In this document: in pieces, positions 17,384 to 50,275 of the stretch | Numbering within the stretch: position 1 is the stretch's first letter | Layout: each line of letters opens with the position of its first letter | From: an uncultured Aquimarina sp. | GTDB taxonomy: Bacteria > Bacteroidota > Bacteroidia > Flavobacteriales > Flavobacteriaceae | Direction of reading: 5' to 3' | Assembly (NCBI GenBank): GCA_947489685.1 | Contig: CANLEM010000006.1 | Location: 62,001-126,000, forward strand | Length of the DNA: 64,000 nucleotides | The notes under the pieces: generated by a model | Seen by the model: only the letters and a program-made list of their open reading frames with translations | Database searches by the model: none | What the model was told of the DNA's origin: nothing | Program-made: the position numbers and the translations under genes

Positions 17384-17956
17384 TTAATTATTAACCCAGT
17401 TTTCTAACATTTTTTTACCATCAGGAGTCAATACAGATTCTGGATGAAACTGTACTCCCCGTACATCCAAATCTCTATGACGTAAAGACATAATTTGTCC
17501 GTTTTGATCATAGGATGTAACCTCTAGACAATCGGGTAAATCTTTATCGTTTACAACCCATGAGTGATATCTGCCTACATCAAATTTTTCATTTAATCCA
17601 TCAAAAAGAGGTTCATTAGATACCGATAAAGTAACATTTGTTGCTACGCCATGATAGACTTCGTCTAGATTAATAAGACTTCCTCCAAAAACTTCTCCAA
17701 TAGCTTGTTGACCCAGGCAAACCCCAAAAATGCTTTTTGTAGCGGCATATTTGCTAATAATATCTTTTAATAAACCTGCTTCTTCGGGTATTCCTGGCCC
17801 TGGAGAAAGGAGTATTTTTTGAAAAGGTGCCACGTCTTCTAACCGTAATTGATCATTTCGTTTTACGGTAACTTCACAATCTAAATCTTCGAGATAGTGT
17901 ACTAAGTTGTACACAAAAGAATCGTAGTTGTCTATTACTAATATTTTTTTATTCAT
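17384..17956 (-). CDS. trpG: Anthranilate synthase component II (glutamine amidotransferase)
   Basis: IDNYDSFVYNLVHYLE, LSPGPGIPEEAG, GVCLGQQAIGE, GVQFHPESVLTPDG. Confidence 0.96.
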   Translation of the reverse strand: MNKKILVIDNYDSFVYNLVHYLEDLDCEVTVKRNDQLRLEDVAPFQKILLSPGPGIPEEAGLLKDIISKYAATKSIFGVCLGQQAIGEVFGGSLINLDEVYHGVATNVTLSVSNEPLFDGLNEKFDVGRYHSWVVNDKDLPDCLEVTSYDQNGQIMSLRHRDLDVRGVQFHPESVLTPDGKKMLENWVNN

Positions 17957-19400: not shown

Positions 19401-19434
19401 AAAAAAAAGGCTTGTCGTGATTTGACAAGCCTTT
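19401..19434 (-). terminator. trp attenuator terminator
   Basis: Minus strand AAAGGCTTGTC-AAATCAC-GACAAGCCTTTTTTTT: perfect 11-bp stem plus U-tract, between the leader peptide and trpE. Confidence 0.88.
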
Positions 19435-19463
19435 GATATGTTTACTTAACACAATAACAGGAT

Positions 19464-19526
19464 CTATCTCACGACGTTTTCGTTTTGAGAAGACCACCAC
19501 CAATTATTTGTTAAGATTATTTTCAT
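19464..19526 (-). CDS. trpL: trp operon leader peptide, MKIILTNNWWWSSQNENVVR
   Basis: 20-codon ORF with three consecutive TGG codons, followed by the intrinsic terminator and trpE. Confidence 0.87.
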   Translation of the reverse strand: MKIILTNNWWWSSQNENVVR

Positions 19527-19581
19527 TTTTTTCTTTATGAGGTCAAATATATAAATTAATTATAATTCTCAATAAAAAAAA

Positions 19582-23102: not shown

Positions 23103-24407
23103 TTACTTTACAATAAACTTTTGGATTTGTGTTTTATTTCCAGTGGTAATATGCATAAAATAAATACCTGGTGATAAATGATTTAGTTTTATCGTTTGAT
23201 TTATTTTAGTTGTCTTTTCTGGTGTTTTTAATATTATAATTTCTAAAATTCTTCCATTAATATCTTTAATACTCATTTTTGATGAGGAAGATTGAAGGTT
23301 ATAAATATTCAGATTAAGAATATCTTTTGCTGGGTTAGGGAAGACAATAAAATTTAATTCTCCCAAATCAGATTTAGTATTAGCCTTTGAGGTACATGAC
23401 CCAAGGTTTATCCATACTTCCCATTGACCCGAATTTTGTTCTGGATTTTTCCCAGTATTCCACCATTTGGCTTCATATTCGACTTCATTGTATACCACTT
23501 TGTTACCGATAACATAGGTCGCATTAGTGGACCAGGCACTTATTCCGTCACAACCAGCTCCTCCAGTGCATTGTCCTGTAGAGTTATAAGTCGTTTGATT
23601 ACAATTAATGGTAAAATTACCTATTTGATCCCCCGAAGGATTTCGGGTTTCCCACTGGCTCCCCACCGTGGTAGTTGTGGCGTAAGAACCTCCTGCATTG
23701 GCAGACCCTTGTAATGAATTATTCTGATAATACTGTAATGTACAATCTGTATTATTGGTAAAAGTCGCGCTTATTGCATCGCCAGTAGTACACCCGGCAC
23801 CACCACCTTCGACAATTATATCACTTACTGAATAAAATGCTTCATGGCTCTCAGTATAATCTCTCTGCCAAATACTTACTAAGGCGGCTCTTTTACCGGC
23901 ATAAGAATCAGGAATAAAAGATCTAATAATAGTGGATGATGATGGAGGTCCTTGCCCTACACTGCCAATCTCTATCAAATCATTCCATCGTAATGGTTTT
24001 GTAGGATCCCAATTTAATTGAGTAATGTAAACCTTGTAATATTGAGTTTTATGAGGTGCTGTATTTGTCCATTCCACGTCAATATATCCGTGATTAACAG
24101 TTGTTGCTGGCCAATCACTACTCAACGCATCGAGACAGCTAAAGTCTACAGCACTACCATTACCACCACTTGCAATTTGACCATCCGGAATTAAAGCCTG
24201 GTGGTTTCCGAAATTGGTATCAGGTTGTAAAACCCCCCTCCATTCATAAATTGCATTGCCACAAGGAGTGCAAATAGGGGTTGATGAATTATTAAAACAA
24301 TTGTAAATCCTACTTGGAGGATAAATTACAGTACCATGCGAGAATACTGGCTGAGCGATGCCCAACAAGAAAAGAAAAAATACGAGAAATTTAAGAGTTT
24401 TCTTCAT
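23103..24407 (-). CDS. AA10 lytic polysaccharide monooxygenase with CBM5/12 and T9SS sorting domain
   Basis: Signal peptide then HGTVIYPPSRIYNCF (mature N-terminal His), WTNTAPHKTQYYKVYIT (second His), HEAFYSVSDIIVEG; CBM5/12 (WSTNATYVIGNKVVYNEVEYEAKWW); C-terminal LNFIVFPNPAKDILNL...GIYFMHITTGNKTQIQKFIVK. Confidence 0.93.
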   Translation of the reverse strand: MKKTLKFLVFFLFLLGIAQPVFSHGTVIYPPSRIYNCFNNSSTPICTPCGNAIYEWRGVLQPDTNFGNHQALIPDGQIASGGNGSAVDFSCLDALSSDWPATTVNHGYIDVEWTNTAPHKTQYYKVYITQLNWDPTKPLRWNDLIEIGSVGQGPPSSSTIIRSFIPDSYAGKRAALVSIWQRDYTESHEAFYSVSDIIVEGGGAGCTTGDAISATFTNNTDCTLQYYQNNSLQGSANAGGSYATTTTVGSQWETRNPSGDQIGNFTINCNQTTYNSTGQCTGGAGCDGISAWSTNATYVIGNKVVYNEVEYEAKWWNTGKNPEQNSGQWEVWINLGSCTSKANTKSDLGELNFIVFPNPAKDILNLNIYNLQSSSSKMSIKDINGRILEIIILKTPEKTTKINQTIKLNHLSPGIYFMHITTGNKTQIQKFIVK

Positions 24408-49750: not shown

Positions 49751-49890
49751 TTGAAGTGGAGTCGGAGAGGGCCGTAGCGTCAAGCAAAGGCTTTAGAGCC
49801 CTTTGTAGCGTAGGAGCCAGGTGGCGCGCTGGCCGAATCCCCTGGATACACAAAATCCTGCCAATTGGCAGGATTGAAGTGGAGTCGGAG
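49751..49890. repeat. 17-bp direct repeat TTGAAGTGGAGTCGGAG at 49751-49767 and 49874-49890; second copy covers the tmRNA 3' end
   Basis: Exact match with 123-bp offset; each copy is preceded by a different palindrome (CTCTTGAAAGAG; AATCCTGCCAATTGGCAGGATT). Confidence 0.8.
49854..49875 (-). terminator. Hairpin directly downstream of the tmRNA 3' end
   Basis: Perfect palindrome AATCCTGCCAATTGGCAGGATT. Confidence 0.65.
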
Positions 49891-50275
49891 GGATTCGAAC
49901 CCTCGTCCAAACAAGGAACAACATAGCTTTCTACACGCTTAGTTTTTGTTTAATTTTCGTCGATAAGAAAGACCAAAAACCGCCAACCTATCGCTTATTC
50001 TCAATTAAGTTTCGAAATTATATCAAGATCCTATAATTTCTAGGTTTACTTTTACGATACCTCATGATCAATCGCCGCAAACCAAGGCTCTTGAGAGGTA
50101 TCCTGCTTGCTCACCTAGTGAGCCGAGGCATTATCCTACTATAATTCGGATTATGCAGCTAGGGCGTAGTTATTCTCGCCGTTTAAAAAAGTGAAATATG
50201 ATATTTACGAGCTATATCCCAGCGCTCGGCGTGCTTACCATCCTATTCATCTCGCTGTCAAAACCAGTCGACCCC
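49880..50275 (-). ncRNA. ssrA: tmRNA
   Basis: 5' GGGGTCGACTGGTTTTGACAGCGAGATGAATAGG ... tag ORF AACGGCGAGAATAACTACGCCCTAGCTGCATAA (NGENNYALAA*, 50151-50183) ... GGACGAGGGTTCGAATCCCTCCGACTCCA 3'. Acceptor ends pair (GGGGUCG/CGACUCC). CCA not encoded. Confidence 0.95.

Follow-up and report, generated by a model that had tools for sequence, protein, structure and literature searches.

In the trp leader of Escherichia coli, trpL, analyzed by Yanofsky, the antiterminator uses the 5′ arm of the terminator (2:3 versus 3:4 pairing). For Bacteroidetes, the element Bacteroid-trp was proposed in 2010 by Weinberg et al. as a probable cis-regulatory RNA (PMC2864571). In 2019, an element located before the trp operon of Flavobacterium psychrophilum was called, in the main text, similar to the E. 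coli leader (PMC6414381), and the main text of the 2021 transcriptome of F. psychrophilum mentions, for amino-acid operons, strong clues of upstream attenuation by leader peptides (PMC9723704).

The Aquimarina trp operon is preceded by a Bacteroid-trp element

The window analyzed here is a stretch of DNA of 64,000 nucleotides, and all the features described below are on its minus strand. According to the Pfam matches, trpE (anthranilate synthase component I, 19357–17960; PF04715 and PF00425) is followed by trpG (glutamine amidotransferase, PF00117), trpD (PF02885/PF00591), trpC (PF00218), trpF (PF00697), trpB (PF00291) and trpA (PF00290), in that order, between positions 17956 and 12961. The nearest trpE genes, with up to 92% identity, are those of Aquimarina. 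Between the end of a YceI-family gene on the same strand and the leader ATG there are 55 nt. Elsewhere in the window, we noticed a tmRNA gene (49877–50275, RF00023, 148 bits), and a gene (23103–24407) whose product starts with HGTVIYPPSR after a signal peptide; by eye, this protein resembles a chitin/cellulose-active LPMO, and its C-terminal stretch is like a type IX secretion sorting domain.

A cmscan search aligned the full Rfam model RF01692 (Bacteroid-trp, model positions 1–131) to 19546–19424 with 68.1 bits, above the gathering cut-off of 49 bits (E = 2.5e-6 in the full window), and this was the only match in the whole genome. The location upstream of trpE–trpA in a member of the Bacteroidota, and the presence of a short ORF with two or more Trp codons ahead of a terminator, also agree with the family; the element is a well-formed member of it. 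A sequence-only reading of this locus had described the element as unannotated, which is wrong with respect to Rfam; its proposal of attenuation in Bacteroidetes is supported by the results presented here but is not new, given that it had been put forward in the three reports cited above. Other Rfam matches at this location (mir-26, STnc300, PrrF and others) stayed below threshold and were discarded as chance hits.

Bacteroid-trp was detected in 214 of the 301 genomes sampled from the window's family, in three other families (37/150, 18/151 and 48/151 genomes) and, at the level of the phylum, in 44 of 395 sampled genomes. The trpE gene was downstream in 107 of the 112 loci tested, and the five misses corresponded to 501-base stretches. 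One genome (G1088, contig C39) has two matches separated by approximately 5 kb (110007–110147 and 114978–115120), possibly reflecting a duplicated or split trp locus.

The leader contains three tandem Trp codons, an intrinsic terminator and a segment complementary to its loop

The leader ORF starts with an ATG at 19526–19524 and encodes the peptide MKIILTNNWWWSSQNENVVR* (19526–19464); homologous Trp-rich ORFs were found at 183 loci. Codons 9–11 are three tandem Trp codons (TGGTGGTGG, 19502–19494), the putative sensor. By itself, TGGTGGTGG is frequent, with 95 copies in the genome; WWW was present in 103 of the 105 leaders of the first parsed set. The intrinsic terminator (19434–19401) has a perfect stem of 11 bp formed by AAAGGCTTGTC (19434–19424) and GACAAGCCTTT (19416–19406), a 7-nt loop (AAATCAC) and a U tract of eight T (19408–19401), and its core occurs only once in the genome. 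The candidate antiterminator segment, GUCGUGA (19475–19469), lies within leader codons 18–20, 18 nt past the last Trp codon; it can form 7 bp with UCACGAC (19420–19414), which includes the loop bases UCAC and the first 3 nt of the 3′ arm. For all these elements (the ORF with its three TGG codons, the 11-bp stem and U tract followed by trpE, and the complementarity with its 18-nt spacing) the sequence-only reading was exact to the base.

A complement as strong as that of GUCGUGA was obtained in 0.9% of shuffled leaders, and the fold of the whole leader was 4.9 sd below that of shuffled sequences. A chance origin is ruled out by the conservation of these elements in relatives.

Upstream of the leader, we identified a promoter of the Bacteroidota sigma-A type (19572–19544) from the sequence and its relatives, with TTG at 19572–19570, a spacing of 18 nt and TATATTTG at 19551–19544, which conforms to TAnnTTTG. 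In 178/183 leaders, this box was found at most 45 nt upstream of the leader ATG, versus 3.6% in shuffles; as these sequences are related, the value is a count and not a rate. According to the main text of the F. psychrophilum transcriptome, the TAnnTTTG box occupies positions −12 to −5 of the start site (PMC9723704), and the transcript of the window is predicted to start at about 19539, 13 nt before the leader ATG. A scan with the sigma-70 consensus revealed promoters no more numerous than in shuffles, as expected in a phylum with another promoter type. The box-to-ATG distances cluster at 4–5 nt and at 16–20 nt. The box is 4–5 nt before the ATG in 48/183 relatives, which predicts leaderless leader-peptide mRNAs starting at the ATG or one base before it; leaderless transcripts represent 5.5% of the mapped mRNAs of F. 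psychrophilum in the main text of the same report (PMC9723704).

The antiterminator segment is conserved at a fixed distance from the Trp codons and covaries with the terminator

The relatives comprised 183 parsed leaders, nearly all from Flavobacteriaceae, and 64 additional leaders from three other families. In 175 of the 183, the segment that best complements the loop of the terminator together with the top of its 3′ arm begins 16–20 nt past the last Trp codon, whereas relative to the end of the stop codon its start drifts over 23 nt (−13 to +10 nt). The reading frame of these nucleotides varies (ACG TCG TGA in many relatives, AAC GTC GTG AGA here), or they lie past the stop codon, which indicates that the RNA and not the peptide is under selection. 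The last four bases of the terminator loop are TCAC in 160/183 leaders.

Native leader/terminator partners reached a complementarity of 17.01, compared with 16.60 for swapped partners (sd 0.066) and approximately 10.2 for shuffled leaders. In an alignment of 34 diverse sequences, 92.9% of the cells of the antiterminator helix were paired versus 90.3% in shuffles, and six double-change cells were observed versus 0.9 in shuffles, with three of the seven pairs changed on both sides. None of 500 shuffles attained as high a covariation score or as many double-change cells, and the signal was lost when the partner was slid by one to three bases. In the terminator stem, compensatory double changes were present in 6 of the 11 pairs. 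These covariation counts come from related sequences in which most positions hardly vary.

In the window's family, the mean of the best complementarity to the loop and 3′ arm was 16.9 versus 10.0 for shuffled leaders, and the loop together with the top of the 3′ arm was targeted in 170 of 173 distinct leaders. In contrast, the best complementarity to the 5′ arm had a mean of 10.2 versus 10.9 for shuffled leaders, and hence the 5′ arm is not targeted.

The target of the segment differs in some other families

In a sister family, the leader segment, also 18 nt past the last Trp codon, is GUUGGUUC and the apex of the terminator is GAACCGAC; in one genome of this family GUUGAUUC is paired with GAAUCGAC. 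In another family, GUCGUAAG faces CUUACGAC at 20 nt, and in a third one GGCAA, at 17–18 nt, is opposite UUGCC in the 5′ arm of the terminator. The sister families are the strongest test of the antiterminator pairing. When leader groups were tabulated against terminator groups, every leader group fitted best with the terminators of its own group (for example, 17.0 versus 9.0–13.1). In the window's family, in f11 and in the GUUGG group of f2 this best fit involved the loop and 3′ arm, and in f3 and the remainder of f2 it involved the 5′ arm; the E. coli type of wiring does not apply to the window's family and is limited to the outgroups f3 and part of f2. Individually, the outgroup leaders L230, L231, L235, L237, L240–L244 and L246 (the family of genome G650), as well as L218, L219, L222, L223 and L226–L229, have this E. 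coli-like arrangement, in which the segment past the Trp codons matches the 5′ arm of the terminator and not its loop and 3′ arm.

A broader interpretation, which we regard as having an even chance of being correct, is that the trp leaders of Bacteroidota constitute a distinct, late-committing attenuator, in which an antiterminator set on a fixed ruler of 16–20 nt from the last Trp codon would invade the terminator through its loop and 3′ arm during emergence. The target would have been rewired to the 5′ arm in some families, and in about one quarter of the relatives examined the leader mRNA would start at the start codon or one base before it.

Folding models suggest a three-state switch that operates kinetically

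In the absence of a ribosome, the leader is predicted to fold into a long hairpin (19515–19445) in which the ORF, including the Trp codons, is paired with the region past the stop codon. The tip of this hairpin, UCUCA (19490–19486) with UGAGA (19471–19467) and ACG (19483–19481) with CGU (19476–19474), would sequester GUCGUGA. The prediction of this sequestration holds for 172 of 175 leaders. The arm responsible mostly lies 3–12 nt past the last Trp codon; if the footprint of the ribosome is assumed to reach about 9 nt past the A-site codon, stalling at the Trp codons would place most of this arm under the ribosome. Since the segment is sequestered by an arm located just past the Trp codons, a three-state switch is suggested. 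RNAalifold, applied to a sequence-only alignment, found the terminator and no conserved long hairpin, a miss that we take to come from the alignment and not from the structure, given that the individual folds show this hairpin.

When the ribosome was placed at the third Trp codon of the window, the modelled probability of the antiterminator was 1.00 from the emergence of position 19414 to that of 19410, while in the absence of a ribosome, or with one at the stop codon, that of the terminator was at least 0.97 once 19412 had emerged. The polymerase hides roughly 12–14 nt of RNA, and the interval of emergence between 19414 and 19410 would correspond to its passage through the U tract. In the relatives, with 6 nt of the 3′ arm exposed, the antiterminator dominated in 173 of 175 leaders when the ribosome was stalled (the terminator in 2), and the terminator dominated in 151 of 175 without a ribosome and in 121 of 175 when the segment was shuffled and the stall maintained. 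The full three-state pattern was predicted in 144/171 leaders, where the segment is covered in the stop-codon state by construction of the model; in the no-ribosome state, termination was not predicted in 24/171 relatives. In one leader, L024, the ORF ends early (WWWCF*), and the segment falls beyond the footprint assumed for a ribosome at the stop codon; this leader may be poorly repressed or represent a recent change.

The antiterminator was calculated at −6.7 kcal/mol as a hairpin and −9.1 kcal/mol as a duplex versus −15.3 kcal/mol for the full terminator, of which 8 bp (−6.6 kcal/mol) could still form alongside the antiterminator. With the whole 3′ arm exposed, the model favored the terminator in 168 of 175 leaders even with a stalled ribosome. 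Given that the antiterminator loses to the finished terminator at equilibrium, the switch must be kinetic. This need is the main weakness of the model, which depends on timing and on the assumed footprints of the ribosome and the polymerase.

These results modify the picture drawn by the sequence-only reading. The folding that it proposed as a check for competing structures predicts the antiterminator and the terminator that it described, and adds a third structure, the long hairpin in which, without a ribosome, the Trp codons are buried and GUCGUGA is sequestered. The classic switch geometry stands in that the segment is modelled as free under a stall; the correction is that an antiterminator of 7 bp, which loses at equilibrium, would have to act kinetically. 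Its other check, the comparison with relatives, revealed that the WWW ORF, the terminator and the antiterminator pairing are conserved, with compensatory changes, in the 183 leaders and the sister families.

Discussion

The conserved and covarying set formed by the WWW ORF, the terminator and an antiterminator held at a constant spacing from the Trp codons supports the ribosome-stalling attenuation foreseen in the earlier reading, and we consider it highly probable that this member of Bacteroid-trp acts as a ribosome-stalling transcription attenuator of the trpEGDCFBA operon. The leader ORF carries tandem codons for the operon's own product, and the antiterminator and the terminator are, as computed, mutually exclusive, with the segment free under a stall. 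The parts, their complementarity, spacing and covariation are read directly in the sequences; from them we infer the events involving the ribosome and the polymerase, and the response to Trp.

Other explanations were weighed against this one. The pairing of GUCGUGA with the loop could be a by-product, if only the long hairpin regulates the terminator or if the segment merely closes the tip hairpin. The predominance of the predicted tip hairpin, which uses the same segment, and the greater thermodynamic strength of the terminator would be in line with this idea; however, the tip hairpin leaves unexplained the TCAC found so regularly at the loop end, as well as the joint changes of the loop and the leader segment in sister families, and we consider a by-product improbable. 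Arrest by the nascent peptide, as with TnaC, or a functional small protein, instead of attenuation by codon counting, seems to us even less probable. A short ORF is indeed conserved in hundreds of genomes, but arrest is made unlikely by the scarce conservation of the peptide beyond WWW, and the conserved RNA segment appears in different frames or past the stop codon. Codon-starvation sensing has as its hallmark several consecutive copies of the rare codon that corresponds to the operon.

The explanation to which we give the least credit is control of the operon by a Trp-binding protein (TrpR or TRAP) or a T-box, the hairpin being the ordinary terminator of the upstream YceI-like gene. The short distance between this gene and the leader ATG, on the same strand, is compatible with such a role, but a promoter and an ORF with Trp codons are located between the gene and the terminator. 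Moreover, the TrpR and TRAP models had no match in the genome, although they recovered their positive controls, and no T-box was detected within the window.

Under ribosome-stalling attenuation, transcription would start about 13 nt before the leader ORF. When Trp is plentiful, the ribosome would reach the stop codon and cover GUCGUGA (19475–19469), the terminator at 19434–19401 would form, and transcription would halt before trpE. In a leader without a ribosome, the long hairpin (19515–19445) would keep GUCGUGA in its tip, and the terminator would also form. When Trp is scarce, a ribosome stalled on UGGUGGUGG would mask the 5′ arm of the tip hairpin (bases 4–8 past the last Trp codon), and the free GUCGUGA, 18 nt downstream, would capture UCACGAC as it exits from the RNA polymerase. 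This capture would precede the emergence of the remaining 3′ arm of the terminator, whose top three pairs would be blocked, allowing transcription of the trp genes.

The identity of the element is settled by this analysis, and the known Bacteroid-trp family gains a testable, fully placed three-state switch that includes a pairing absent from the public model, and the fixed spacing and the paired changes name the exact bases for mutation. Given that translation initiation in Bacteroidota occurs mostly without Shine-Dalgarno sequences, ribosome-coupled attenuation in this phylum is a good test of how tight transcription–translation coupling is outside the usual model organisms.

No statement of this antiterminator pairing was found in the main texts consulted; the precise antiterminator, the ruler-like spacing and the rewiring from one family to another may be new. 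The locus resembles that of F. psychrophilum in having a Bacteroid-Trp RNA before the trp operon, which was interpreted as E. coli-like in main texts that do not name the alternative pairings (PMC6414381, PMC9723704). With Rfam RF01692 it shares a full-length match, the same place before trpE, the Trp codons and the 5′ arm of the terminator. However, the model stops at this arm (...GGCUUGUC) and its structure line contains only the long leader hairpin, so that the pairing of the antiterminator with the terminator loop and 3′ arm falls outside it. In comparison with E. coli trpL, the tandem Trp codons, a protecting hairpin and the mutually exclusive antiterminator and terminator are alike, a similarity from which we claim no homology; in contrast to trpL, the antiterminator proposed here is directed at the loop of the terminator and the upper part of its 3′ arm.
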